A stretch of DNA of 64,000 nt from Apostichopus japonicus (Eukaryota; Echinodermata; Holothuroidea; Aspidochirotida; Stichopodidae): assembly GCF_037975245.1 (NCBI RefSeq), contig NC_092579.1, positions 18,163,678-18,227,677 on the forward strand. Direction: 5' to 3'. Positions 3,001-63,370 of this stretch are shown one piece after another. A program made the position numbers and the translations under genes. Position 1 is the first letter of the stretch; every line of letters begins with the position of its first letter. The notes under the pieces were generated by a model. That model did not search any database, had not been told where the DNA came from, and worked only from the letters and a program-made list of their open reading frames with translations.

Positions 3001-3744
3001 AAGTGGGAAAGAGGGGTGTGATGTTGTGCGGTGGATCAGTGGGTGCAATAATCTCGTGAACTTAGTTACTTCACTAAGCCCAGACTAACCTTTACATGTA
3101 AAAAATGATTTACCTTCATACACTGTATATTAGTACATTGATTATCAAAAAAATGGAGACAAAAGAATTATGTCCATGATATTTATATATCAACAATAAT
3201 GAAATGAAAAATATTTAATTACAAGAGGCAATATACCTTTCTGTTAAAATTGCGTGTGAAAGGTTTGAAAATAAAGGTAATTAACCCAGAGCCCGTGACT
3301 GTATAACAATTCCCATTCTCGTCAGGCCTGGTATCAAATCTCGTTGGCCAGCATCCACGAAACCACGTGACATTTGAATTCACAGTGATTCGCAATTTTG
3401 TGCATATACCATGCACTAACCACATTTGTTGCCTGCAGAATATGCAGGTTAGGACTCATATTCATGAAAATGATGATAACACATATTCAGGTCCATGCAT
3501 ATTCATAATATTGTTCTATTGTTCTGTGCCTTTACTAAAAGTTTGAAAGTTAATTGAATATTGGATTCACCATTGACAGTGGCATACACTATTACGATTT
3601 TTTATTTACTTGTGTATTTATTCATTCATTTTCTTTAATGGCGCATGTGTAAATATGTATCATTAATATAACTGTTAGTAGTTTCGGAGACCGTCTGTCA
3701 TTCAACCAATGTTTATCTATTTCCTTTTGTTTATTTATTTATAG
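1..3744. other. Non-coding flank or intron upstream of the RASD exon
   Basis: I find no coding exon here on either strand. The missing first half of the RASD GTPase (P-loop, switch I, switch II) would be expected upstream on the + strand, but no frame shows a GxxxxGK-type P-loop, so it must lie outside the window. The stretch holds A/T-rich sequence, short G-rich tracts near 1,680-1,760 and 2,840-2,870, and a weak tRNA B-box-like sequence on the minus strand near 70-80. Confidence 0.6.
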
Positions 3745-4319
3745 GAGACATTTTCATCCTCGTGTTTAGCTTCGCGGATCGTAACTCCTTCCATGAAGTT
3801 GTTCGACTACGTGATCAAATTGCTGAGACGAAGTTACAAATCAAAGGGAGTAAAGTCGTTCCCATGGTGATAGCAGGCAATAAATGTGATCTCGCGCAGG
3901 AGGAGAGACAAGTGAATTCGGAAGAGGCCCTGAGGATGTTTGATACCGCCCGGAGATGTACCTACATCGAAACGTCGGCTAAAAGACTCATGAACATTGA
4001 CGTACTCTTCAAAATTCTTTTCGAAAACGCCAAACTACCCAGCGAAATGAGCCCATCTTTGCACAGAAAGATTAGCGTAAGTCAGAGCCCTAATTTGAGG
4101 CCCTCCGGACCTGGTAAATGGGGTATTCGTCGTAGGCTGAGTGAGGCGTGTGGCATGGTGACGCCAAACGCCAGACGCCCCTCGGTGAGGAGTGATCTGA
4201 TGCAACTGAGATTTCAGGCGATTCACGGGAGCAGCTTCGATTTCGAAGATGAAGACGAAGAACACAAGACGGATGCCGTTCAAAGGAAGTTACGTAAATT
4301 GATGTGTTGCATATCCTGA
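3745..4319 (+). CDS. RASD-type (Dexras1/Rhes-like) small GTPase, last coding exon
   Basis: This is the C-terminal exon of a Ras-like GTPase of the RASD1/RASD2 group, membrane-attached signalling GTPases linked to G-protein and cAMP pathways. The exon follows a TTTATTTATAG acceptor and starts in phase 1; the split codon gives Gly, then DIFILVFSF, at the same position where I recall the vertebrate RASD1 intron. It encodes 190 complete residues and a TGA stop. The G4 motif NKCD and the G5 motif ETSAK are intact. Family-specific segments follow the G domain: AKLPSEMSP, LHRKISV, ARRPSV and SDLM. The protein ends in a basic stretch and the CAAX box CCIS; the final Ser predicts farnesylation. An acidic run (FEDEDEEH) precedes the basic tail. 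The P-loop and switch regions are not in the window, so catalytic competence cannot be judged. Assignment to RASD is strong; RASD1 versus RASD2 cannot be decided. Confidence 0.88.
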
Positions 4320-11310: not shown

Positions 11311-11670
11311 TTGTGTGTTGTTGTGTGTTGTTGTGTGTTGTTGTGTGTGGTTGTGTGTTGTTGTGTGGGGTTGTGTGGGGTTGTGTGTTGTTGTGTGTTG
11401 TTGTGTGTTGTTGTGTGTTGTTGTGTGTTGTTGTGTGTTGTTGTGTGTTGTTGTGTGTTGTTGTGTGTTGTTGTGTGTTGTTGTGTGGGGTTGTGTGGGG
11501 TTGTGTGTTGTTGTGTGGGGTTGTGTGGGGTTGTGTGGGGTTGTGTGGGGTTGTGTGGGGTTGTGTGGGGTTGTGTGGGGTTGTGTGGGGTTGTGTGGGG
11601 TTGTGTGGGGTTGTGTGGGGTTGTGTGGGGTTGTGTGGGGTTGTGTGGGGTTGTGTGGGGTTGTGTGTGG
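11311..11670. repeat. 10-bp G-rich minisatellite, 36 units
   Basis: Exactly 36 head-to-tail decamers: TTGTGTG followed by TTG, GGG or TGG. Units ending TTG dominate the first half (11311-11480) and units ending GGG fill the second half (11511-11660), with TGG units at both borders (11341 and 11661). The GGG half reads GGGGTTGTGT repeated, a regular G-quadruplex motif with six-base loops. Long ORFs across it in several frames are artefacts of the repeat. Confidence 0.97.
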
Positions 11671-13387
11671 TTGATCCACATCTATTGGTTCGATACAAGC
11701 CTTTACTTTGCGACAAATTTGAAAATAAACAATTTCTGTTTTGTCTTTTTGCTTTTACTTTTAAGGTTTAACAAATATCGACAGCAAAGTTTAACATAAT
11801 TGTCATGTCTCGACTGAACTTCAATTCCTCCATTCTATTTGTTGATGGCACTGCAATACAGAATAGCCTATGTTCATTTGTCCGTATTAACATCATTGTG
11901 TGTGTGTGTGCTTCTTAGCAGGAATTGACAGCGTCGAGTCATCGAGGTGGCCCCTACCATAGTAATGAATGAGTCAGTTTAATTCAAGGGACAGTAGAAA
12001 GATGCAGTGTTCCAATTAGCCTGAGCAGGGGCGGAGGAAGAGGGCTCAATCTAGACGGCAAAAGCTCGGTTTGAAGGAATAAACCGCAAGGATATTTCAA
12101 ATCGTTCGGGAATAATGGATTCACTTTGTAATGTTAACCAGAATTTTTTTTTCATCAAAAAGGTTATTTTCTAATTACATTTTTATTCCGCGTATAACTT
12201 TTCAACAACAGGATACTTTATAAAGAACAGAGGGCACGTTTAAATTACAAAAAAATGGACGGAGGGTCCTTCTATTCCCAAAATGAACAGTTCTTAGTTA
12301 TGACAAGGAGAACTTCGGAGTTTCAAATATCCAGGGAAACGTATCCCCTTCCCCCCCCCCCCCTCGTCCGTTTCTCCTTTCCTGTGGCTCCTGTAACCCT
12401 GATGAGCTTTAGTTTCCTTAATTTTCTTGGCAAAATTCTCTTGCATATCTATATAAATACCTTTACATATAATCGAAGAGTGTTTCAACATTTAGCCTTG
12501 TAGGATAATCGCTAAATTACTACTCCTCCATGTTGTATATACACAAGCTACGTATATACATAAATAAACCTCTGTACTGTCATCATTCAATTGGGGAGTA
12601 TTCAGGAAGCGTGCATCCATCTTTTACTACTATATGCGACGAAACGTTTGCTCATATATACTCACAAACGTTTTATCGCCTAGCAAACATTAATGTATAG
12701 GCAGATAATTAAATATTATTTCAACTTTATCAGCTTGAACACGAAAAAAAGCTATTAGCGATGTTTAATTTATATACTTGATTGATGTAAATGTCCATGT
12801 TGGATTAGCACTAGTTTTATATAGAACATAAAAAGCAAGACATGCGTTAATGTATTCCCAATACACAGGACAGGAAATAAATTCACCGGTCTTGATTTAC
12901 TATTCAATCCACAGCGCACTATATATACTCTGTTGTATAGCTTTGTTGACTTCGTGCTTACAAATAAATCATAAAATCGGAGAGATTTGAAATTAATGTG
13001 TTTACACAGATGATCATGCATCTTGTAGTGTAAATACATAAATCAGCTGCACATTAATGTGTTGGGAGAAAGAGAGCAGAAAATTTCCACTACAATTAAG
13101 AGAATGACATTGATTAATTTCTTAAACTCAAAATATAAATTTTCCAAAAACGTGATGTTTCAATATCAGTGCAGTATTTGTAAAAGTTTATTTGTTTATG
13201 GTTTGATAGAACGATGCATTTGTGGGTGGTGGTGGAAGGCTTAGATATTTAGCATGTTGCTCAAGGTACAGAGTCTCCCTAAAGTCCCCTCCCCCCCTAA
13301 TATCCCTTTATTGCTCTTTCTCACCTTTCCCCTTCCTTCCTCAGACATTTTAACTATAGTTTGTGCATGCTTTATTTCAACTTATGT

Positions 13388-21300: not shown

Positions 21301-24300
21301 TCTACATTATATTTGAGGTGGGAGCTAGTGATAGGGCAGATGTTCAACTTGGTAGATGAGCACCGATTGCTACGTACAGCAACTCATTGCCATTTCCCGT
21401 TTACTTGTAGTTTTTCGCAGCTACTCAGAAAATTATGAAGTTTTTAGATATTAAATTTGGAGGTTTTTCTGAATACTAAGACCTGTTTTGCAAACACAAA
21501 CAATACATATTTGTATTGCATGAAAACAGTCTGACCATTTTGCTTATAATTTTACAATGTGATACCAAATAAATTATTCCTTGCTACTGATGAGTGGCTT
21601 CTACTGCATTATTGGTAAACTCTCTACCTTAATCTACAGTATGCACCAAGTCTCTCTTCTCTCTCCGCCACCACTCCCTCTCCTCATTCCCATCTCCCCA
21701 CTCACTCTCCTCATTCCCATCTCCCCACTCGCTCTCCTCATTCCCATCTCCCCACTCCCTCTCCTCATTCCCATCTCCCCACTCCCTCTCCTCATTCCCA
21801 TCTCCCCACTCCCTCTCCTCATTCCCATCTCCCCACTCCCTCTCCTCATTCCCATCTCCCCACTCCCTCTCCTCATTCCCATCTCCCCACTCCCTCTCCT
21901 CATTCCCATCTCCCCACTCCCTCTCCTCATTCCCATCTCCCCACTCCCTCTCCTCATTCCCATCTCCCCACTCCCTCTCTTCATTCCCATCTCCCCACTC
22001 CCTCTCCTCATTCCCATCTCCCCACTCCCTCTCCTCATTCCCATCTCCCCACTCCCTCTCCTCATTCCCATCTCCCCACTCCCTCTCCTCATTCCCATCT
22101 CCCCACTCCCTCTCCTCATTCCCATCTCCCCACTCCCTCTCCTCATTCCCATCTCCCCACTCCCTCTCCTCATTCCCATCTCCCCACTCCCTCTCTTCAT
22201 TCCCATCTCCCCACTCCCTCTCCTCATTCCCATCTCCCCACTCCCTCTCCTCATTCCCATCTCCCCACTCCCTCTCCTCATTCCCATCTCCCCACTCCCT
22301 CTCCTCATTCCCATCTCCCCACTCCCTCTCCTCATTCCCATCTCCCCACTCCCTCTCTTCATTCCCATCTCCCCACTCCCTCTCCTCATTCCCATCTCCC
22401 CACTCCCTCTCTTCATTCCCATCTCCCCACTCCCTCTCCTCATTCCCATCTCCCCACTCCCTCTCCTCATTCCCATCTCCCCACTCCCTCTCTTCATTCC
22501 CATCTCCCCACTCCCTCTCCTCATTCCCATCTCCCCACTCCCTCTCCTCATTCCCATCTCCCCACTCCCTCTCCTCATTCCCATCTCCCCACTCCCTCTC
22601 CTCATTCCCATCTCCCCACTCCCTCTCTTCATTCCCATCTCCCCACTCCCTCTCCTCATTCCCATCTCCCCACTCCCTCTCCTCATTCCCATCTCCCCAC
22701 TCCCTCTCCTCATTCCCATCTCCCCACTCCCTCTCTTCATTCCCATCTCCCCACTCCCTCTCCTCATTCCCATCTCCCCACTCCCTCTCCTCATTCCCAT
22801 CTCCCCACTCCCTCTCCTCATTCCCATCTCCCCACTCCCTCTCCTCATTCCCATCTCCCCACTCCCTCTCTTCATTCCCATCTCCCCACTCCCTCTCCTC
22901 ATTCCCATCTCCCCACTCCCTCTCCTCATTCCCATCTCCCCACTCCCTCTCCTCATTCCCATCTCCCCACTCCCTCTCCTCATTCCCATCTCCCCACTCC
23001 CTCTCCTCATTCCCATCTCCCCACTCCCTCTCCTCATTCCCATCTCCCCACTCCCTCTCCTCATTCCCATCTCCCCACTCCCTCTCTTCATTCCCATCTC
23101 CCCACTCCCTCTCCTCATTCCCATCTCCCCACTCCCTCTCCTCATTCCCATCTCCCCACTCCCTCTCCTCATTCCCATCTCCCCACTCCCTCTCCTCATT
23201 CCCATCTCCCCACTCCCTCTCCTCATTCCCATCTCCCCACTCCCTCTCCTCATTCCCATCTCCCCACTCCCTCTCCTCATTCCCATCTCCCCACTCGCTC
23301 TCCTCATTCCCATCTCCCCACTCCCTCTCTTCATTCCCATCTCCCCACTCCCTCTCCTCATTCCCATCTCCCCACTCCCTCTCCTCATTCCCATCTCCCC
23401 ACTCCCTCTCCTCATTCCCATCTCCCCACTCCCTCTCCTCATTCCCATCTCCCCACTCCCTCTCTTCATTCCCATCTCCCCACTCCCTCTCCTCATTCCC
23501 ATCTCCCCACTCCCTCTCCTCATTCCCATCTCCCCACTCCCTCTCCTCATTCCCATCTCCCCACTCCCTCTCCTCATTCCCATCTCCCCACTCCCTCTCC
23601 TCATTCCCATCTCCCCACTCCCTCTCTTCATTCCCATCTCCCCACTCCCTCTCCTCATTCCCATCTCCCCACTCCCTCTCCTCATTCCCATCTCCCCACT
23701 CCCTCTCCTCATTCCCATCTCCCCACTCCCTCTCTTCATTCCCATCTCCCCACTCCCTCTCCTCATTCCCATCTCCCCACTCCCTCTCCTCATTCCCATC
23801 TCCCCACTCCCTCTCCTCATTCCCATCTCCCCACTCCCTCTCCTCATTCCCATCTCCCCACTCCCTCTCCTCATTCCCATCTCCCCACTCACTCTCCTCA
23901 TTCCCATCTCCCCACTCCCTCTCCTCATTCCCATCTCCCCACTCCCTCTCCTCATTCCCATCTCCCCACTCCCTCTCTTCATTCCCATCTCCCCACTCCC
24001 TCTCTTCATTCCCATCTCCCCACTCCCTCTCCTCATTCCCATCTCCCCACTCCCTCTCCTCATTCCCATCTCCCCACTCCCTCTCCTCATTCCCATCTCC
24101 CCACTCCCTCTCCTCATTCCCATCTCCCCACTCCCTCTCCTCATTCCCATCTCCCCACTCCCTCTCTTCATTCCCATCTCCCCACTCCCTCTCCTCATTC
24201 CCATCTCCCCACTCCCTCTCCTCATTCCCATCTCCCCACTCCCTCTCTTCATTCCCATCTCCCCACTCCCTCTCCTCATTCCCATCTCCCCACTCCCTCT

Positions 24301-27300
24301 CCTCATTCCCATCTCCCCACTCCCTCTCCTCATTCCCATCTCCCCACTCCCTCTCCTCATTCCCATCTCCCCACTCCCTCTCCTCATTCCCATCTCCCCA
24401 CTCCCTCTCCTCATTCCCATCTCCCCACTCCCTCTCCTCATTCCCATCTCCCCACTCCCTCTCTTCATTCCCATCTCCCCACTCCCTCTCCTCATTCCCA
24501 TCTCCCCACTCCCTCTCTTCATTCCCATCTCCCCACTCCCTCTCCTCATTCCCATCTCCCCATTCCCTCTCCTCATTCCCATCTCCCCACTCCCTCTCCT
24601 CATTCCTTCTTCTACCTACATTCCTCTCATCCTTCACTCTATCTCCCTCCCCCATGCATGTCCCCCCTGTTTACTCTTATGACATTGCAGTAACATGATT
24701 GTATGTTGAGCACTTAGTTTTGTGTAACCTTACATACAGTATGTATGTGTGCTACTGTAGTTGGAAGTCTGATGTACAGTACAATCTGTCCACTTTTATG
24801 AAAGAAACAAAATATGTAAAAAGATAGTAATTCTCCATTATGCAAACTATTTTATGCAATGATAAATATCTATTCAGTACTTAGGAGAGAGGAAACCTCA
24901 TAGTAGCTTTTTTTCCAGTGAGATCTAAATTTGAGATTAATTTTGATGACCTTACCTATATTCATAGTTACCAGTTTCTACTCTGTAGAGAGGTTCTCCC
25001 AGGGTAGCGTAGGCATATTCCTCATCATCCATTTCCTTCACCTTCAGGCAGAATGACTGATAAAGAAATAAATAACAATAAAGTAATTAATTATAATAAA
25101 TAAACATAAACAAGCTTAAAACTGATTGAGACAAAAGTAAACCAAAACTATGTCGAATATCCAGCAAGGAAAACAAAAATTTCCACAGAGTACCAGTAAA
25201 ACCCTTCATCGAGGTACTGGATATGCCACATTTGATTGAATCCATTTTTTTTAATCATTCCATGATAGTCACACCACTGAGGATTATCGAGACAAATTTA
25301 TACAATTTCATATTCTAAGATATATGTAAAACTGTCTTCTACTGCAAAACGAATCTTTAAACAATTAAAACAAATTATTAAACATCCCATGAGACAAAGT
25401 TCTTAACCAAAAAAGAACGTATTTAAAGTCTCCCATGAAGTTCTGTGAACTTGTAACTCTTCAACAATATTTTTTACCAATTTCCTTGTACAGAATGGTT
25501 TCCCTTTTGAAACAGATGCATGCCTTGTAGCATTATTCCTCTCAGTAAATGGAAACGCTGCGTCTAATACTTGACAGACTTTTAATCAGCTTATTCATCT
25601 CAACCCCCCCACCCCCCCCAAAAAAAAGGGCTTTAAAACAGCAGCAACCCTTTCAGAAATCAAATGTCTTGAACTATGTGCAGAACACAGTCTTTGAACA
25701 ATAGTCAATTTCAATTAATGTTGTTTAATACTCTATACCGAACAGTCCCTACTGGGCAGATTTTTGAAGGCTAACCAGTCTAACCTAAGTTCTTCTTCTT
25801 GCAACTGCTGAAACTGGTATAACCATTGGAAGGATTTTTTATATTAATGTTTCTTAAAGGAAGATGAGTAGTGGGAGTGGGGGCATAGGGAGGGGGGTGG
25901 TTGAGACTCTTGAGTAAAAGTCATCCTAAGTCATAACACACTGTGACAGACTAATTGCGTACAGCAGGCGGTCGATATTAAAAAAAAGAATGATGCCATC
26001 CTTCCACTGGTAAAGTGAAGGAATGCTAAACCCTTACAAATTACTACTGTAAATGTCAACTGTAAATGTAAAGGCAGAGTGAAATGTTAGCTCTACTGAA
26101 CATGAGGAACCTACAGTAGATTCCTTAGGCAAATGCAAATGATGTTGGTAACCTTACCTACATAAACGTATCATCTAGAAAGTCCTATGGCTTTTACACT
26201 AGGTACATTACAATCATGAAAAGAGTCATTCAATTTGTAATTTACAAAAAGCAAAGGGAGGAAGGCAGGGTTGAAAAGTTGGTACAGTTATATGGACATT
26301 TTGCATAGAATTTTGCTATGCAATACTGGAAAAAGAATATTCCCCGAATGAACGCACGATTGTTGCATGGGATGTTAGTAGTTTTTACTTCCCTGTGGCT
26401 TCAGCAAGGCATTTGCCTGAACTTTCATTTCTTTGCCATAATTTACAGTTGCAGAATTAACCAAAAATAAGAACAAACAATATAGAGAGAGAAAGGGAGA
26501 AATAGAGAAAAAAAAAAGAAAAAAAAAATTATATTGCTCAATCTCCTAAACTCTTCAAAACTGATGAGAATCATACTAGACTCTTTCAGGAGGAGAGACA
26601 AGCAATTCATTTTTTACAAATAATTTATCCAAAATAATGAAAAGCACAAGATCAAGTCATTTTGGTAGGAGCTTTGAAGTTTGCTGCTACAACTCTCAAC
26701 ATTAGACTGATCATGCTGACCAGTCCTATCTGGGACATGATTGCTTAACATATGACACTAGTTCGAGTCACTCCAAGATTAATGTATGTCGTCCAGTTAT
26801 AGAGTTGTTGACGATTGACAATTTATAATCATGGACGTGAATATGAATCTAAGAGACTGACTTCGGTCAGCTTGCGGCTTTGATAAGCCAATGAGGCTTC
26901 TTCGTGAGTTCCTGCTTGCAGGAGGATCTAAATACATACATGACAAAACATATTTAAGAGATTTCAAATATGAGCAAACCAAATAATTCCTTTTAATCAC
27001 ATACACAAAAGAGTACTACATCATATTTTCCATTTTTCTGTGTGTGTGTGTGTGTAACACAGGGAAACTTCAAACTGACACAGTTCTGCTGGAAGGAATC
27101 AGTATGTATTAACGATGTCAGATTTCTCCCTCATGATTTTTGTTTTTAATAAAAGGCCTCAAAATGAAAATTTAAAAAAATTTCCAATAAAACTAAAGAG
27201 TTGTATTTAATGGAATTTGAACGCTGGATTGAGCCGGCAAAGCTGCAGGCCGGCTTCCTGTCATGTTTCCTCTACAGATGAATCATCCACAAAGCTACTT

Positions 27301-38820: not shown

Positions 38821-38892
38821 ATACATATATATTATATATATATAAATATTAAATATATATATATATATATAAATATTAAATATATATATATA

Positions 38893-38922
<30 letters not shown>
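38821..38922. repeat. (TA)n tract at the left border of the 6.3-kb element
   Basis: About 100 bases of TA repeats interrupted by AATATTAA-type spacers, directly abutting the element end ATACCCAG. Confidence 0.9.
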
Positions 38923-38923
<1 letters not shown>

Positions 38924-38940
38924 CCCAGAAAACATCATGC

Positions 38941-39412
38941 TAGCGGTCCACCGGCGGCCCGCCAGCTGCACCACTGGCGGTCCACCGGCGGGGAAAGCCG
39001 GCGGAACGCCAGAGATTTGGCCAGCTTTAATCCGGCGGTCCGCCGGCGACTACGCCAGAAGACCGCCGGAGAAACGCCAGCGTACCGCCAGTGTTTCACA
39101 AGCAGACCGCCGAAGAAACGCCAGCGTACCGCCGGTGTACCGCCAGAGAAACGCCAGTGTACCGCCGAAGAAACGCCAGCGTTCCGCCGGTGTACCGCCA
39201 GTGTTCCACCAGCAGACCGCCGAAGAAACTCCAGCGTACCGCCGGTGTTCCACCAGTAGACCGCCAAAGAAATGCCAGCGTACCGCTGGTGTACCGTCAG
39301 TGTTCCACCAGCAGACCGCCGAAGAAACGCCAGTTTTCCGCCGGTGTACTACCAGCAGACCGCCGGAGAAACGCAAGCTTACCACCGGAGTACCGCTGAA
39401 TTTCTGTCAGAG
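38941..39412. repeat. Left subterminal array: 11-bp subunits in 44/55-bp higher-order units
   Basis: Built from short GCC-centred blocks: ACCGCCGAAGAA (12), ACGCCAGCGT (10), ACCGCCGGTGT (11), ACCGCCAGTGT (11, sometimes absent) and TCCACCAGCAG (11). The ordered set repeats with period 55 or 44. The first 120 bases are a more palindromic version with GCGGTCCGCCGGCG. ORFs crossing it are repeat artefacts. Confidence 0.9.
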
Positions 39413-39805
39413 AGAGCCATTGGCTATCCACTAGCTAATATCCAGTGTTCAAGCGACCTGCTAGCCCAAATCTGGTATTTCGCCAGCAACCCGCTAGGCA
39501 GAGATCTTCACATGAATTGCTAACCAAATATCTGTGTTCCGGTAGAAAACTGTCCGTCAAATATCTGGTTTTGTCCCAGCACATTGTCAAGGGAATGCTA
39601 GCAAGAGAGCCAGCTTGTTTGGGGTGTACTACTAGAACAGAGCTATTGGTCTACCTGCAGATTTTACTGAATTACACATGCGGTTACATATGAAGAAATA
39701 ATGACTAACACAGTGAAATTAGTTGCTATCATTTTATTACGCCTATAAATTACAAAGCGAGAAAATGAGTTCCAGCGTTAAATATTGCAACAGCACTAAA
39801 GAAAT

Positions 39806-41802
39806 TCACTCGTCAACTGTTTGTGGTGAAGTCCGAGATTTTCGCCCTCCCTCACAATCTGATGCATCCTTCAGAAATCTAACCACCGCCGCCTGAATAT
39901 CAGATGAAGTCGATTGTGCAGTTCCTCCGTACAGCTTCTGTTAATACAAAACACATTACACAAAACATTACATAAAAGATTGCATTCTACACAAGCAATA
40001 AAATGAAGCCAATAATGGGTTACCCGATACTCATAGCTAGGACAGTTACTACTGTTCATGTTCCACAACCATGCATCAGTTACTACTGTAACTGCTCGTA
40101 ACACAGTAACATGTGTTACAGGTGGCAAGTTTTTTGTAAATGCAAATTTAAAAAAAAAAAATTTAAATTATAAAATTTAATATACTAATTTTTTTTTTTT
40201 TTTAAATTACTGCAAATTTTCACCTGTCTGACTCTTAGTTCAACGTGTCACAGCTTTTTGATAATTACTGTGCCAACTGTAACACTAGCTATGAGTATCG
40301 GCTGGGGTCTCACATTATGATCACAATTGGTTAAACTACATTATTCACATTTTCACACATTTACCATTTTTTCAGTGATATACGAAATATTTCCTTTGCA
40401 TTTGACAGTCACTTTCTTTCATTTTATACTGAACACATGCATTACTGTTGCAAATCCAGGTCCCATCAATTGGGAAAGAAAGTGACAATGGACGGGTCAA
40501 TAAAATCATATGGTGAATTAACTTTAAAATCAATGCTGAATGCTGCTTTTCAACTGCATCTGAAACAACACATCTTACATCAAAATATATTTGTAGTAAC
40601 TTATTTAAATGACCAGAATTCAATGTATATTAAAGCAAGAATTCTCGTTGATGGGGTTTTGCATTGAAAAGCTGGCCGATCCATGAGTCAAATGCACAAC
40701 CCCCTCCCCACAACTCAAGGTTCTCTTCACTGCTGCTGAAAACAAAAATGACACATATAAACTCACTTTCAATTATGTATTTCATACATGCAGCTTCGCA
40801 AAGGCTGTTTTCCCAGTGGTACATGTCCAGTTCAGTGTGGTAGCAACTGCATTTGCCAATAAATCACCCATGATTCTTTTAACGCACTCCTTCAACGTGT
40901 TGCCACCAAGAATTGATAGTCTTCTCTTCTTGAAACAACAAAAAGAAAGAAAAGTTAATCAGAAACCATTCAATAATTATTATACAAACAGAAATATTCA
41001 AGTAATTCTATTTCATCCAAACTTTGGCATCTTTTGCTAATTTCTTATCAATATTTTAAGAGGAACTAGCAATGCAGTGCTGCAATGTTCCTTTCTGGGT
41101 CCAGTCAAAAACAAGATTGATTTAACAGCCCACTTTTGTAGAATGCACCGCAATGTAAAATCATTTCTGGCCAAACTCTTGTTACCTAAATGCTTTCATG
41201 TCTGTTACTACCTTAGAGTTTTAATTGTCTCCCAGGAAAAGGAAATTAGCCCCTCAGGAAATATTTTATTTTGTACAGACCACTGACACAATAAAACCTG
41301 ACTTGGCTTCAAATTTATAATGATAAACTAACATTACACTCTGGAAAACTGTTTTCTGATTACTTTCCTTACACTTTTAAACTGACTTACCAAATATCTT
41401 TCCAAAGCCTTGTTTGTTTCAATAGAGTCATCCAGGTTATTAAATTCCTCCAAAGATCCCACAGGAATAGTAACGCGCTGGCTTCTAACTTAGTTCCTGA
41501 AATCCTGATCTGGAAAAATTGATAAATTGTGATTTAATCTGCTGACTCCATCTTCCTCAAAAAACAACAACAGCAGCATACTTTGGTGTTTCCATACTTC
41601 AAATTAAAGTTAAAAACAGTAAATAAGTTCACAACAACATATTGTGCAGGAGAGGAATGGCTATCTGTGGCTCCTTTATATACTTAGAATCCTTTCACTA
41701 ATAACTTCAACTGTGTCATCATGCAGCTCAAAGTTGTTATCATTATTGCATGTTTCTTGTAAAACAGTGTTGACATGCCCATCAACCTCATTTTGTATTT
41801 TC
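39806..41802 (-). CDS. DUF4806-type domain protein gene inside the 6.3-kb element (partial model)
   Basis: Exons in order: 41684-41802, 41391-41488, 40788-40928, 39806-39937. Phases agree at every junction (1/2, 0/0, 0/0). The first exon encodes an acidic linker (EVDGHVNTVLQETC, DDTVEVISERIL). The next three give a domain I recognise as DUF4806: VTIPVGSLEEFNNLDDS, ALERYL, then LGGNTLKECVKRIMGDLLAN, LNWT, GKTAFAKL, then AVVRFLKDA and a TGA stop. The function of DUF4806 is unknown. A 5' exon could lie at about 43634-43700 (an ATG ORF ending at a GTATGT donor), but no typical N-terminal domain was found. The acceptors of the first two exons have poor pyrimidine tracts and stops lie just upstream, so decay cannot be excluded. 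Confidence 0.6.
40024..40301. mobile_element. Fold-back element (278-bp imperfect palindrome) in the DUF4806 intron
   Basis: CCGATACTCATAGCTAG at 40024-40040 is exactly inverted at 40285-40301. Nearer the centre ACAGGTG is inverted again, then an A-rich arm (AAATTTAAAAAA) faces a T-rich arm (TTTTTTAAATT). The whole 278 bases can fold on itself, as in a MITE. It lies between the last two DUF4806 exons. Confidence 0.75.
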
Positions 41803-43795
41803 CTTGTTTAGTTCGCCAGGGATTTCACATGAGTCATTTTTTCCCTGTTAATCTACTGCAAAAAAAGAACCAAAAACAATAATCTAGAGCTCTTCATTCT
41901 GTATCCATTACTTACAATGGGCATTAACCCTTGGATTATTATTATTTTTTTTTGGGGGGGGGGGGAGAACTATTATATAATGTCAAATTTACATCATCAA
42001 ATACAGACAAATCATGTTATTCGTTACTCTGTCTGCAGAGCTTTTTAAACAGAATAACATACCTTCCTGCTTGCCGAAAGTTGTATCTACTTTCATTGCC
42101 ATTTAATTCATTTGGGAATACAATAGAGGGGCAAATTGAACCTAAACTACCTCCACTAACTATGCTTTCAATGATTTATTGCCAAGGAATTTAAACAGTT
42201 CTCCCCGCAGCACTTTAAACTTTGAACCCTTTAAAGTAACTTTCCATAGAAACGCAGTACAGACATAGCACAGAGGCAGTTCAGCTATTGGGCAAATATA
42301 CTTTACTTTAACTGAGGATCACTTCAATGTAGGCAGTTATTTTCTTGGAAATCATGTGCAGAATGATTCACCAGAAACTGAGCACATGGAATAGACCCAA
42401 TGCAAATATTTCAAATTGACAGTAGCTAAGACAAAAAGCAACAAAAAGAGATAAGGCAACCACAATTTTTTTAGAAGCCTAGAGGCTAGATATGAAATAT
42501 TTTTCATTATCGTGTTGGTTGGTATCACCAAGAGCGTAGGAACCGGGGGGGGGGGGGGATGGGGGCGCCAGCCCCCCAGTGAAAACTGTGGAGGGGCGGA
42601 AGTATCATTCCGCCCTCCCCCCTGGCTTCGCAAGTCAGAAAACCCCTTTTTCATTCCCAAATGAGAAAAAAATCTCACTTGGAGCACCAAATTGCATCTA
42701 AGGCCAGGTGAAAATACAAAATTAAGTTTACAAAATTGAGTGGGTGTTGAAGTGTGCCATATTGCACCCTCCCCCCAGGCCGGCCATCAGTCTCTTAAGC
42801 CCCCCACTCAAAAGTACCTTCCTACGCTACTGGGTATCACTATACTCCACATGAGTACTCATAAACTATGATGACGATGACCTATTGTTCTCCAAAATGC
42901 TTAATTGGTCACAAAAACTTTGAAGCCTAAGCACTAAACATGAAATCCAAAAAGATTTAACCACCAACCCATTCCTGATATTTAAAAACAACCATACTTA
43001 GGCCCTATATTATTAATAAGGTTTTAACATTGAGTCTTTACCTTCTTAACTAGCCTAGGCCTAGCTATAAACAAATAAAACAGCACATTATTTCTTAAAA
43101 GTTATGGATGACCATGATTTTTCAATACTGTAACATACCAAATGATTTAAAACTAGGCCTAGGCCCCTAGTACTAGTGTACTACCACTACTAGTAGTAAC
43201 TAGTAGTAGTACTGTACTACTAGTAAAGTAATATATATTTCAGAATATGATATTTAAAATTAGGAGGAAGCCTTCCATAGTCATCTAGTAATATTTACAG
43301 TATTAACCTTCTGCAGATAACAGTTTTCTTCTAATACAGTCAGCAAACAAATGTTTCCGCATTACATTGCATAACCTAGCTATTATACAAACAACGGTCA
43401 TTAGTTTACCTTTATGTGTGATCGTTATTGCTCAGCCTAACACAATTAACACCTACAAATGTAGGCTAGGTGTAATTCATACACCGCGAAAGGCTTCTCA
43501 TTAAGCGATACATTCTAGCCTAACGCTAGATTACGTCTAAGTTTATTTAAAAAATAGTCACTTCAAATACTTGCGAAATCAAATGTACAACTGTCAACCC
43601 TTAGTAAGAAAAAACAGGTACATACCTCTTAAGCAAATTTGTATCTGCAGACTGCAAGTACTTTCAAAACAATTGATCAGGATATCCAACATCGAAAGAG
43701 TTGTAACGGATTACGAAAGCGACCGCTTTTCAAACTAGCTGCTATATCTGAGGACACTGAGCAGTGCGGTTTAGCGATTGGATGCCAGTTATACT
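41803..43795. other. Interior of the 6.3-kb element, 5' of the DUF4806 model
   Basis: Apart from the hAT MITE (42529-42832), no recognised coding sequence. An ACT/AGT-rich palindromic stretch occurs at 43160-43225. A possible minus-strand first exon with an ATG ends at a GTATGT donor near 43634. Confidence 0.45.
42529..42832. mobile_element. hAT-type MITE with perfect 8-bp target duplication, nested in the 6.3-kb element
   Basis: A 304-bp element. Left end CAAGAGCGTAGGAACC; right end reversed CAGTAGCGTAGGAAGG. GGTATCAC is present exactly on both sides (42521-42528 and 42833-42840). G- and C-runs fill the interior and no transposase is encoded. It inserted after the host element was in place. 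Confidence 0.92.
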
Positions 43796-44290
43796 AGGCT
43801 CGTTCGATCAGTGAAAAATGTTTTCTGAACTGTTTTCTCTCAACTACGCTAAATTGTTGATTAATAAATACTTCTTGGGATAGTTGAAATTTATTAAAGT
43901 ATTTGAATATCGCTTATAACGTTATTGCTAATATTTATTTCAGAATTTGAATTTGTTGAAAATATTATTTTGTAAGTGTTCCTGTGCTTAAGGGTATTAC
44001 CCGCCCATTTTGCCCAAATGCTTGCCAAGATTTCTTCATGTGGTATCCGTCAGACTCGTTCGATCAGTATTTTTTTCCCCTTCAAATATTATGTAGTGTA
44101 TGATAATATATATAACATTGGATGGTAAGCAAAATTTAACTACTTTGAGTTAGCTCAATCTTTAATTACCCTATAGTTATTGGCGAATATAGGTTTTAGG
44201 AAAATATTATTCTGTTAATTGTGCCAGTTTGGTAAGGTAACTTCCCGCCAATTCTGCACAAAAGCTATCCAATATTTCCTCCGGCGGTAC
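43796..44290. repeat. Diverged 255-bp direct duplication
   Basis: CTCGTTCGATCAGT occurs at about 43799 and 44054. Each is followed, about 190 bases on, by related blocks (CCCGCCCATTTTGCCC versus CCCGCCAATTCTGCAC). Two old tandem copies lie just inside the right array of the element. Confidence 0.7.
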
Positions 44291-45190
44291 TGCTGTCGGC
44301 ATTCCGCTGGACTTACAAGCCAGCTGTAATATCTATCGGTCCGTTAGCGGACCACCAGCCGTTGCCTAATAACGTATAAGCCCATGCAGCCGCACCTGAA
44401 CCTGGCCTATAATACTACACAAAATCCAAGTATTCTTAATTTTTCTCTCCACAGGAACAAATATATACAAAAAGCACGGGTAAATTAGTTTAATAGAAAC
44501 TCATCTTTAACTAAACTTTCACATAGAGACTTAAGATTTTGGACAGACCCGATGGCCAATGTGTATGTGAACTTGTGTAAACTGCTGAGTGACTTTCATA
44601 ACATAATATTTGTGGGAAATTTTCTACGGCGTTACGCTGTCGGTCTGCTGTTGGAATTCTGCTAGGTTTTTCCAAGCAACAATGTCTATCGGTCCGTTGG
44701 CGGACCTCCAGCGTGAAACCACCGGCTCGTTTACGACGTTGATACGCTGTTGGTCCGCTGTCGGCAATACGCTGGGTTTTTTCCAAGCAGCAATGTCTAT
44801 CGGTCCGTTGGCGGACCTCCAGCGTGTAACCGCCGGCTTTTTAACGACGTCGATACGCTGTTGGTCCGCTGTCGGCAATACGCTGGGTTTTTCCAAGCAG
44901 CAATGTCTATCGGTCCGTTGGCGGACCTCCAGCGTGTAACCGCCGGCTTTTTAACGACGTCGATACGCTGTTGGTCCGCTGTCGGCAATACGCTGGGTTT
45001 TTCCAAGCAGCAATGTCTATCGGTCCGTTGGCGGACCTCCAGCGTGTAACCGCCGGCTTTTTTACGACGTCGATACGCTGTTGGTCCGCTGTCGGCAATA
45101 CGCTGGGTTTTTCCAAGCAGCAATGTCTATCGGTCCGTTGGCGGACCTCCAGCGTTTTACCGCCAGCGTTTTTACGCCAGCGGACCGCCA
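44283..45190. repeat. Right subterminal array: 110-bp units
   Basis: GGTCCGTTGGCGGACC recurs at 44691, 44802, 44912, 45022 and 45132, giving periods of 111, 110, 110 and 110. A diverged unit (GGTCCGTTAGCGGACC) lies near 44339, separated by unique DNA. Each unit holds the palindrome GGTCCGTTGGCGGACC, a GGTCCGCTGTCGG block and an ACGCTGG block, related in reverse to the CCAGCGT of the left array. ORFs crossing it are repeat artefacts. Confidence 0.93.
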
Positions 45191-45205
45191 GTGTGATGCG
45201 TACTG

Positions 45206-45207
<2 letters not shown>

Positions 45208-45257
<50 letters not shown>
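45208..45257. repeat. (TA)n at the right border of the 6.3-kb element
   Basis: About 48 bases of pure TA repeat directly after the element end CTGGGTAT. Confidence 0.93.
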
Positions 45258-45504: not shown

Positions 45505-46235
45505 AAAGATAGATAGAAACTTTATTGTCCATTTCAGAAAACAGAAAATGGAAATTATTTCTCGTCGACAGTAAACATAAAACAATAGTGAATACAAACA
45601 CAATCATACAATAAACAAACTATAAGTGAACAGCTACGAGAATAAAACTAAATAGGCAGAACCAGAACAGTAACAGAGGCAGCACAGAGGGCTGCAAGTG
45701 ACAGATCACACACTGTGGCCAAATCGCTTTGCACGCAAGTTAAATAAGTGTATTGCCTCAGGTAAGAAAGAATTGCGGAACCTGGACGTTTTAGTATTGG
45801 GCACCTGTAATCAGGGAGTTGTTATGGAACAACTCCTTGCTGTAATCGTATCCCGGATCTGTTGAAAATGAAATGACTATGAAAAGGGTGTGTGTGATCT
45901 TCTTTTATATTTTTGAGTTTCTTCAATAGACTCTCTTCATATATGGTTGAGAGTGACGGAAGACTTGAACCAATGCAACGTTTAGCTAACTTCCGACCAC
46001 GTTCCAGCTCTGCCCTGTACTTCTTCGGCATACTGCCAAAGAAACATATAATACTGGACGCTATGACACTTTGGATGATTGACTTGTAGAATAATTTCAT
46101 GATGGTATAGTTAACTCTGCATTGCTTTAATTTTCTAAGGAAATAAAGTTGTGGCAGGCTTTACCCTTAACAGCCTTTGTGTGAACATTCCAATTAAGTC
46201 AAGTGAGGTATCCATTGAAAAGGGAATAGATACGG
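45505..46235 (-). pseudogene. LINE (CR1/L2-like) fragment: C-terminal end of reverse transcriptase ORF and 3' tail
   Basis: The minus strand encodes the C-terminal end of a non-LTR retrotransposon polymerase in three broken frames. LNWNVHTKAVKGKA is followed by a frameshift; YFLRKLKQCRVNYTIMKLFY continues through LPSLSTIYEESLLKKLKNI to a TAA; and after another shift KTSRFRNSFLPEAIHLFN ends at TGA (45706-45708). The order (LRKL, FY.S.I.SV, LPSL, HP.H, R..SF.P.AI.L.N) is characteristic of CR1/L2/Rex-type ORF2 ends. The 3' end has AATAAAGTTTCTATCTATC, a short TATC tail. It is 5'-truncated and dead. Confidence 0.82.
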
Positions 46236-60462: not shown

Positions 60463-62435
60463 TACTTCTTAAGTTAATGTAACAGGATCACGAATGAAAA
60501 GCATTTGGGCCCTAATCAAAACCGGAACGCCTTGGACCACCTAACCAATGGGCCATATGAACTCTTAAGTAGAAGTGTACAGTACCAAAATGCGTCTTGC
60601 CTGGTCAAAAGAGTGCTTGACCAATTTAATTGACCAATACATCCTTACTTCTTTAATGAGAGTAACAGGACCTCGAAAAAGCTTTGGGCCCTAATCCATG
60701 CAGCACGCCTTGGATCAGCAAACCAAATGTTCAAATGAACTCTAAGGACATTGTAGAAGAGTACCACAATGCGTCTTGGCTAATCCAAAGAATGCTTGAC
60801 CAATTTGATTGACCACTAAATCATTACTTCTTTAATGAGTGTAACAGGACCATGAGAAAGCTTTGGGCCCTAATCCATGCAGCACGCCTTGGATCACCTT
60901 ACCAATGGGCCATATGAACTCTTAAGACATTGAAGAAGAGTTCCATAATGCGTTTTGCCCGGTTCAAAGAATGCTTGACCAATTTAAATGACCACTACAT
61001 CATCACTTCTTAAATTAATGTAAAAGGACCGCAAATAAAAAGCCTTTGGATCTTAATCAAATCCATAACGCCTTGAACCAACTAATCAATTGGTCATATG
61101 ACAATGTAGAAGAGTACTATAATGCATCTTGCCCGGTAGGAAGAATGCTTGACCAATTTAAATGACAGTACTAAATCATCACTTCTTAAATTACTGTAAC
61201 AGGATCACGAATAAAAAGCACTTTGGCCCTAATTAAGACCAGAATGCCTTGAACCACCTTACCAATGGGCCATATGAACTCTTGAGACAATGTAGAAGAG
61301 TACCACAATGCGTCTTGCCCGGTCAAAAGAGTGGTTGACCAATTAAAATGACCACTCAATCATTACTTCTTAAATGAGAGTAACAGGACCAAGAAAAAGC
61401 TTGGGCCCTAATCCATGCAGCATGCCTTGGATCACCAAACCGATGGTTAACATGAACTCTAAGGACATTGTAGAAGAGTACCATAAATTATGCATTATGA
61501 TAATGCGTTTTGCCCGGTTCAAAGAATGCTTGACCAATTTAGATGACCACTACATCATCATTTCTTAAATTAATGTAACGGGACTACGAAAAAGTTTAGG
61601 CCCTAATCAAGGCCAGAATGCCTTGGACCACCTTACCAATGGGCCATATGAAGTCTTAAGAAAATGTAGAAGAGTACCACAATGTGTCTTGCCCGATCAA
61701 AAGAGTGCTTGACCAATTTAATTGACCACTAAATCATTACTTTTTTCATGAGTGTAACAGGACCAAAAAAAAGCTTTAAGCCCTAATCCATGCAGCATGC
61801 CTTGGATCACCAAACCAATGGGTAACATGAACTCTAAGGACATTGTAGAAGAGTACCATAATGCGTTTTGCCCGGTTCAAAGAATGCTTCACCAATTTAA
61901 ATGACCACTACATCATCACTTCTTAAATTAATGTAATAGGACCGAGAATTAAAAGCCTTTTGGCCCTAATCAAAACCAGAACACCTTGAACCAACTTATC
62001 AATGGGTCATATGACAATGTACAGTAGAAGAGTACCAAAATGTGTCTTATCCGGTCCGAAGAATGCTTGACCAATTTAAATGACCACTACATTTTCACTT
62101 CTTAAGTTAATGTAAAGGGATCACTAATAAAAAGCATTTGGGCCCTAATCAACACCAGAATGCCTTGGACCACCTAACCAATGGGCCATATGAACTCTTA
62201 AGACAATTTAGAAGAGTACCACAATGTGTCTTGCCCGATCAAAAGAGTGCTTGACCAATTTAATAGACCACTAAATCATTACTTCTTTCTTGAGTGTAAC
62301 AGGACCAAAAAAAAGCTTTAAGCCCTAATCCATGCAGCACGCCTTGGATCACCAAACCAATTGGTAACATGAACTCTAAGGATATTGTAGAAGAGTACCA
62401 TAATGCGTTTTGCCCAGTTCAAAGAATGCTTGACC

Positions 62436-63370
62436 AGTGTTCTCCACTACCGGTTACGTCCGAGTGCGCCGCCCCGAAAAAATTTGAAAAGACTGGCTAG
62501 CGCCCGGACATAAAGCTACCGCCCGGACGAAAAACTCGGCCGCCCGGACCAAAAAAAATACTCTGGCAGTCAGTCTGGCACCTCGTCAAACATTTTCTAG
62601 AAGTCACTCATATTCTTTAAGAGTGATGAATTTGATCGAAAAAACATGTTTTGTTTCTGCCGCGGCCGTGATTCGATTTGCCCATCACCCCCGTATGCCT
62701 GTAAATTCTCCAATACCTACACACATGACATATCGTAAATAAACACTGACTCCGCGAGGTACGAAACTTCTGTCAAATCAGTGACAAATAGCTTAGTAGC
62801 GCACGCCGCAACGTTCTTAAAGAGTGACGAATTTGATCGAAACTACATGTTTTGCTTCTGAATGCCCCAGAGGAGATAGCAGATGATGAGGAGGAGGATT
62901 TGATGACAGTCAATAGCTAGACTACCTGCATAACATGCTACATGCTGAGACATGTCTCACTGCAATTGTTATCCTGTTGGTGTTGAAATAAATAAAGACT
63001 AATTTGTTATTTGATCATCTATTTATCATTCTTTCATTCATTGTGTGCATCTGTGTAATAAGGACTGATAATTGGTTGATATGCCTGAACTTGGCAGTTA
63101 TCCCAGTCAAGCACAGGCTGTGTTGGGTTTAGCCTTGCACAGTGTAGAATAATTTTTCATTGGACTTAGGGCCTATTCATTACTACTCATATTTCAGCAA
63201 CAATTTTGAAGTGTTCTTATTTTTTTTCATTTGGCAAACAAAAGAGAAAATTTAAAACACTGCCTAAAAACTAGCAATTCCTGGAGATACATGCAAGGCA
63301 AATATAGCACCAAATGTTGCACCATTTGGCGTCTAGCCCACCTTCGGAGGGCAAAAATTTTCTACCACCT
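62436..63370 (+). mobile_element. 0.9-kb insertion in the satellite, starting with the GCCCGGAC repeat (copy 2)
   Basis: Satellite sequence stops at GCTTGAC and CAGTGTTCTCCACTA begins. It is followed by GCGCCCGGACATAAAG, TACCGCCCGGAC and CCGCCCGGACC, as at 52670-52814 in reverse. Satellite resumes near 63370 at a different point of the monomer, so DNA was lost or the array rearranged. No right-end inverted repeat was seen. Confidence 0.65.

Follow-up and report, generated by a model that had tools for sequence, protein, structure and literature searches.

A probable CACTA-like deletion derivative carrying a DUF4806 gene in Apostichopus japonicus

Introduction

The window analysed here is a stretch of 64,000 nucleotides of the Apostichopus japonicus genome (contig NC_092579.1, positions 18,163,678 to 18,227,677 of the forward strand). 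It holds an element with inverted ends, a tandem array inside each end and, between the arrays, a spliced minus-strand gene with a DUF4806 domain (Pfam PF16064). A prediction made earlier from the letters of the window alone (the original prediction) had taken it for a DNA transposon of an unusual family, and recommended a search for other copies with the same ends and for a longer copy with a transposase. We compared the element with its relatives in the genome. The window copy is very probably a deleted, non-autonomous member of a CACTA-like cut-and-paste family of the CMCT clade, in which a DUF4806 gene would take the role played by TnpA in maize Spm.

Results

Ends, target site and subterminal arrays

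Comparison of genomic copies and their target site duplications (TSDs) fixed the exact ends of the element at 38924 and 45207 (6,284 bp, CCCAG...CTGGG); the span first proposed, 38921..45210, described a real element with slightly displaced ends. The inverted ends expected there (about 28 of 36 positions) were recovered, with about 25 of 33 positions matching by eye when the TA tract is left out, and 86% complementarity over 59 nt (38898-38956 and 45175-45233) when it is included. It may be noted that (TA)n does flank the window copy on both sides, as had been stated, but among the copies readable at both ends this holds only for the window copy and one other (L023). A TSD of 2 bp, variable in sequence, fits all 19 copies with informative flanks (TA in 6, AT in 5, TT in 3, TG in 2, and TC, GG and AA in 1 each). 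These are 15 of the 16 two-end short copies described below, whose flanks lie outside (TA)n, together with L033 and three long copies; at the long copy J29, where the flank is an ATG repeat, a 5-bp duplication fits as well. Because the flanks of the other copies differ and the 2-bp duplications vary, (TA)n at the window copy is a landing site only, and we ruled it out as a part of the element or a required target. A search of the element against Rfam gave no match. Also, a 312-bp insert nested in the window copy at 42523-42834 has a run of G and ends GCGTAGGAACC..CCTACGC.

Tandem arrays lie just inside each end, as anticipated by the original prediction. The left array has a period of 11 bp (autocorrelation of 0.52 at lag 11, against a mean of 0.27 over the lags), and the right one is built of a 110-bp unit (10 x 11) in 5.0 copies, the unit number being lower in the other aligned copies than in the window copy. 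They had been called two different arrays, which is true of their periods and units, but one core motif, CCGCCAGCG, is common to both. We counted this 9-mer with at most one mismatch on both strands of the 700-bp ends, using 200 first-order Markov shuffles for comparison. The window element has 9 occurrences on the left and 18 on the right (shuffle means 0.45 and 0.27, maximum 3), and the rest of the window (57,640 bp) has 1. Over the 8 elements tested, each 700-bp end has 7-18 occurrences (shuffle means 0.1-0.8) and no middle has more than 1. Since the motif was chosen from the window element, the count in that element is not an independent one; the remaining seven elements are relatives. Subterminal repeats of a common motif, a feature of the Spm type, are thus present in this family.

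Copies in the genome

A search of the 671.6-Mb genome with the first 480 bp of the element, in which 40 of 50 candidates were scored, gave 47 matches. These fall at 40 separate places, one of them the window, so that the left end occurs at 40 places at least. The inverted ends and arrays are not a product of chance, because the left end recurs at so many places. Both ends were recognised by pattern in 16 of the 20 regions fetched around left-end places, and the same two ends do therefore occur together elsewhere, as had been proposed for checking. Of the other four regions, L015 is clipped by the region limits and L022, L026 and L027 have no recognised second end. The 17 short copies (these 16 and the window copy) align at 94.6-99.9% likeness. 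In one of them (L011) an insertion of 1,947 bp with ends CAGTGGCGGAGA..TCTCCGCCACTG borders the left array on its inner side.

Six more divergent places were also fetched, and four of them (L029-L032) share the left end and carry extra internal DNA. Three long copies are complete (10,203, 10,268 and 10,472 bp), have the same right end, are flanked by TSDs AT, TG and AA, and are mutually 98.8-99.3% alike; the fourth (L032) was traced to 12 bp short of its end. The longer copy with a transposase that had been suggested for search is therefore found in these 10.2-10.5-kb copies with shared ends. The family is mobile, and the likeness of about 99% among long copies, together with some open frames, suggests a recently active and assayable system.

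Transposase of the long copies

In the long copy J31 (minus strand in the orientation of the window) we found an uninterrupted open reading frame (ORF) of 696 aa starting MDLSE; 716-717 open codons are present at three places of this family, that of J31 included. In order, the ORF has D (QINVDGL), D (FVCDAPARA), CxxC (CDKC), H (YMHLV), HxxxH (HCLSH) and E (FPFENFL), residues that we matched by eye to the description of the CMCT clade in PMC12730594. The clade (EnSpm/CACTA, Mirage, Chapaev, Transib and others) is characterised there by TSDs of 2-5 bp and a D, D, E triad accompanied by C(2)C and H(3-4)H; a figure legend counts 2 C and 3 H. The J31 ORF has the C(2)C and three H between the second D and the E, and the 2-bp TSD of the 19 informative copies falls in the stated range. 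With the J31 transposase, 102 genomic matches were listed (100 of 145 candidates scored). Of the 15 places in the genome that exceed the cut-off for PF02992 (Transposase_21), 14 overlap relatives of the J31 transposase (E 1.4e-27 to 1.1e-4). Viral contigs scanned with the transposase and with the DUF4806 gene gave no relative, and sequence searches of the PDB gave nothing convincing.

As a side observation, 54 of the 102 listed transposase matches, a number of them broken, lie on contig C17 (37.2 Mb, 5.5% of the genome), which could be a heterochromatic or sex chromosome serving as a transposon graveyard. This clustering is a curious parallel with the DUF4806 genes of zebrafish Chr4R mentioned in the Discussion.

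The DUF4806 gene of the long copies

A second gene (gene 2) lies downstream of the transposase on the same strand. In J31 a splice acceptor is found 35 nt past the transposase stop, with an ATG one base further, and six exons with GT/AG borders give a protein of 361 aa, assembled by hand for J31 only with splicing read from these motifs. The predicted protein comprises an N-terminal region containing a WPP motif, a Ser/Pro-rich region, a coiled-coil-like stretch and DUF4806 (33.9 bits, E 4.1e-8; curated cut-off 25). The exon motifs are found alike in J29, J30 and J31. Upstream of the transposase, a leader ends in a donor, AAGAG/GTATGT, which is retained in the window copy. Because this donor stands upstream and the acceptor 35 nt past the transposase stop, the transposase ORF most likely lies within the first intron of the DUF4806 message. 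A search of the genome with the PF16064 family found nothing among 16 candidates, probably because the exons are short.

Pairing of the two genes across families

When gene 2 of J31 was searched against the genome (scores for 113 of 481 candidates), each of the 20 matches to the N-terminal exon had a same-strand transposase match 0.7-2.65 kb upstream of it, and 12 of the 20 belong to families 53-61% identical in transposase. A weak match to residues 46-96 beside DUF4806 exon matches, at C16:26628426 (contig and position), was left out of this count. We read two other families, L039 (58% transposase identity) and L040 (48%), and both have the same exon series, their gene-2 proteins being 39% and 37% identical to that of J31 over the parts read. 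When exons 1-2 of L040 were used as query, a transposase match was found 0.7-2.7 kb upstream on the same strand at 37 of 40 exon-1 places (56 rows less 14 exon-2 rows and 2 second pieces), while for random positions the share with a same-strand transposase match in the 3 kb upstream is 0.02%. The pairing is conserved between families and, as judged from this divergence, is old. Also, at C3:8859003-8861278 exons 3-6 of gene 2 match, with exon 1 and the transposase absent among the matches listed; this copy is possibly an intermediate deletion form.

What the window copy retains

The coordinates of all parts are given in Table 1. Compared with J31, about 1.9 kb of the transposase ORF is gone between the two fragments of the window copy, and exons 2 and 3 of gene 2 have no match in it. 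Judged by its sequence, the window copy cannot make a transposase or the full gene-2 protein, and is an internally deleted derivative of the long form; it is non-autonomous, as the original prediction had considered possible. The claim that DUF4806 occurs there with no known transposase holds for this copy, in which DUF4806 is the one intact frame that can be recognised, but the family has a CACTA-like transposase that was lost here by deletion. Similarly, the spliced minus-strand DUF4806 gene that had been proposed is present and open, but as a truncated version of a longer gene. Its frame runs from the ATG at 43692 to the stop at 39806 in four GT..AG exons, and the 145-aa product scores 28.0-28.7 bits for DUF4806 (cut-off 25). 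In the parts equivalent to exons 5 and 6 of J31 there are a 2-nt insertion and an 8-nt deletion. The DUF4806 gene of the window copy might be taken for a broken remnant, given its frame differences from the long copy and the stops present in 27 of the 30 exon-5 matches of short copies. These stops fall past a shifted donor, however, and with that donor 15 of 17 short copies have an open frame, so that this reading was dropped. By its sequence the window copy can therefore make a DUF4806-only protein.

Table 1. Parts of the element in the window, with strand and basis (positions in the window)
Feature	Position	Strand	Basis or remark
Whole element, non-autonomous deletion derivative	38924..45207	.	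Both ends in 16/20 fetched regions; left end at 40 places
(TA)n tract, left target side, outside element	38821..38923	.	Flanks of other copies differ
(TA)n tract, right target side	45208..45257	.	TSD indistinguishable inside tract
Left terminal inverted repeat, CCCAG...GCGGTCC...	38924..38956	+	End comparison
Right terminal inverted repeat	45175..45207	-	End comparison
Left subterminal array, 11-bp period, CCGCCAGCG-type motif, 9 in first 700 bp	38944..39404	+	Autocorrelation, motif count
Right subterminal array, 110-bp unit x5, same 9-bp motif, 18 in last 700 bp	44626..45176	-	Motif count
Nested insert, 312 bp	42523..42834	.	Lacking in L028 and all three complete long copies
First exon, truncated frame (ATG, 22 codons; leader 43626-43728)	43626..43692	-	Donor AAGAG/GTATGT, inferred from splice motifs
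Second exon, truncated frame	41391..41488	-	Final 81 nt match long-copy exon 4
Third exon, truncated frame, most of DUF4806	40788..40928	-	New donor CAT/GTATGA, then 2-nt insertion vs long copy
Last exon, truncated DUF4806 frame	39806..39937	-	8 nt shorter than long-copy exon 6
Gene-2 exon 1 start, 56 nt (METPKYA...)	41540..41596	-	Frame broken; large deletion follows
Transposase ORF end, 41 nt	41637..41677	-	Match to long copy
Transposase ORF start fragment, 147 nt, 1-nt gaps	41681..41827	-	Match to long copy J31

Other features of the window

An ORF at 45825-46160 (minus strand), just right of the element, resembles the C-terminal end of the reverse transcriptase of a non-long-terminal-repeat retrotransposon. 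Further away, an ORF of 215 codons at 3672-4316 (plus strand) with NKCDL and ETSAK motifs may be part of a Ras-type small GTPase. Tandem arrays are found at 21671-24606 (27-bp unit, 108.7 copies, 98% match, several open frames on both strands), at 11311-11673 (10-bp unit TTGTGTGGGG, 36 copies) and at 60464-62436 (179-bp unit, 10.9 copies, 75% match).

Discussion

The findings above are best explained if the transposase of the long copies cuts the CCCAG ends in trans, and if the DUF4806 protein binds the GC-rich CCGCCAGCG arrays and helps to assemble or regulate the complex, as TnpA does for Spm. One promoter with alternative splicing might then give both proteins, with intron 1 of the DUF4806 transcript containing the transposase ORF, and the short copies would spread because they retain the ends and arrays. 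DUF4806 is putatively DNA binding since it is described as BEN-like and possibly chromatin-related, in one sentence of one paper. That DUF4806 may take part in mobilisation, as was originally suggested, we rate as probable, given that longer copies with both the transposase and DUF4806 exist.

Several observations weigh against this explanation. The termini CCCAG..CTGGG are neither CACTA nor the usual CA..TG, and because of them we file the family as CACTA-like (CMCT) and not as canonical CACTA; such termini are stated for EnSpm/CACTA "in most cases". In Pfam the family's own transposase stays below the cut-offs, with 18.3-20.6 bits for PF13960 (DUF4218; cut-off 27), and has no match to PF02992. 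It is also broken in three of the four long copies read (J30, J29 and L032). The splice structure of gene 2 is read from GT/AG motifs only. As for the pairing, DUF4806 of L039 scores 22.4 bits, below the cut-off of 25, and L040, for which the fetched sequence stops where the domain begins, gave no Pfam match to DUF4806. The place C16:26628426-26628872 matches gene-2 residues 46-96 and 250-357 without a transposase match, and 3 of the 40 exon-1 places found with L040 (C3:5309240, C8:40767370 and C12:21034615) are likewise without one. Finally, binding of the arrays by DUF4806 is our inference, and the link to BEN comes from a single sentence; searches of the open-access literature for the BEN domain together with transposons, and for relatives of BEN, gave no link.

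The short form may itself be of use to the family. Its DUF4806-only protein of 145 aa, which lacks the coiled coil and the N-terminal part, could regulate or help the family in trans, a possibility that is compatible with the explanation above and that we regard as doubtful. The open frame in most short copies, its splice motifs and its domain score of 28.0 bits are in favour, as is the compensation by the shifted donor of the two length changes relative to the long copy. Also, the ratio of non-synonymous to synonymous rates (dN/dS) between the window copy and J31 is 0.36 over 103 codons. Against L023, however, it is 0.56 on 11 changes, and among the 13 most alike copies 12 changes are non-synonymous and 4 synonymous, which is close to the ratio expected under neutrality (about 280 to 90 sites). 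Two of the 17 short copies are broken (two stops in L025, a frame shift in L028), L024 has an altered donor although its frame is open, and the ATG of the truncated frame is missing from the J31 leader. The copies are too young for open frames to prove use.

Less likely still, the DUF4806 protein could be a regulator of transcription or chromatin (anti-silencing or repressing) carried as a second gene, and no array binder of the TnpA type. Other transposons of the CMCT clade and KDZ transposons carry TET/JBP anti-silencing enzymes, according to PMC12730594, and the BEN-like description of DUF4806 would suit such a role. However, arrays of one motif at both ends, beside a conserved and putatively DNA-binding partner gene, favour end binding. 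The regulator and the end binder also overlap, because TnpA of Spm does both jobs in the account of PMC2613891.

A Foldback or Rehavkus element, to which the locus had been compared, is very improbable. Tandem repeats do lie close to both ends, but Rehavkus has long terminal inverted repeats built of repeats and 9-bp TSDs, while this family has a short inverted repeat, a TSD of 2 bp in 19 of 19 copies and a CACTA-like transposase in its long partner; the 2-bp TSD leaves the comparison unsupported and rules out that identity. A host DUF4806 gene beside unrelated satellites is hardly conceivable and was discarded, since nothing beyond the window itself speaks for it and the left end at 40 places, with the layout and target duplications recurring in the fetched regions, speaks against it.

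Among known systems, the family that we describe as CACTA-like with a DUF4806 partner is close to maize Spm/En. In Spm (PMC2613891), intron 1 of tnpA contains the tnpD ORF, the subterminal repeats are binding sites of TNPA, and derivatives with deletions are mobilised in trans. Two genes, a repeated subterminal motif and internal-deletion derivatives are likewise found here, and movement in trans and the placing of the transposase ORF within intron 1 of a multi-exon partner gene would be shared as well. In contrast to Spm/En, the second protein has DUF4806 and is not TnpA, the termini are CCCAG, the TSD is 2 bp (a soybean CACTA element has 3 bp in the same source) and the arrays are of 11 and 110 bp. 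With the CMCT clade, as far as it is described in the passages seen, the family shares the DDE residues with C(2)C and three H and a TSD within 2-5 bp, but it differs in its termini, which are not CA..TG, and in the DUF4806 second gene. Foldback and Rehavkus share with it the tandem repeats near the termini, and are unlike it in TSD, inverted repeat and transposase.

The window copy is thus a deletion derivative of the known CACTA-like kind, with a second gene that we did not find described in the open-access literature. There we found no link between DUF4806 and transposons; Repbase was outside this search and may hold such families. Two Hydra species have 69 and 54 DUF4806 genes, tabulated alongside transposase domains (PMC7642931), and zebrafish has DUF4806 genes on its sex chromosome, Chr4R (PMC11075544). 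The domain is the same PF16064, and the passages available from both sources draw no tie to transposons. Tentatively, and with somewhat less than even confidence, we propose that DUF4806 is at root no host domain but the regular second gene of an ancient CACTA-like lineage of animal transposons, where it stands in for the plant TnpA, to which it is unrelated, and evolves together with the subterminal arrays. The DUF4806-only deletion derivatives would then be its regulators, and the multiplied DUF4806 genes of Hydra and of the zebrafish sex chromosome would derive from such elements, as copies or descendants.

For the domain, the finding means that DUF4806 gains a testable likely role, as a partner protein of a transposase with its candidate binding sites adjoining in the same DNA. 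The layout of Spm, with a transposase ORF in the first intron of a partner gene, arrays and deletion derivatives, appears to recur in an animal genome with a different partner, and this offers a candidate explanation for the multiplication of DUF4806 genes in some animals.

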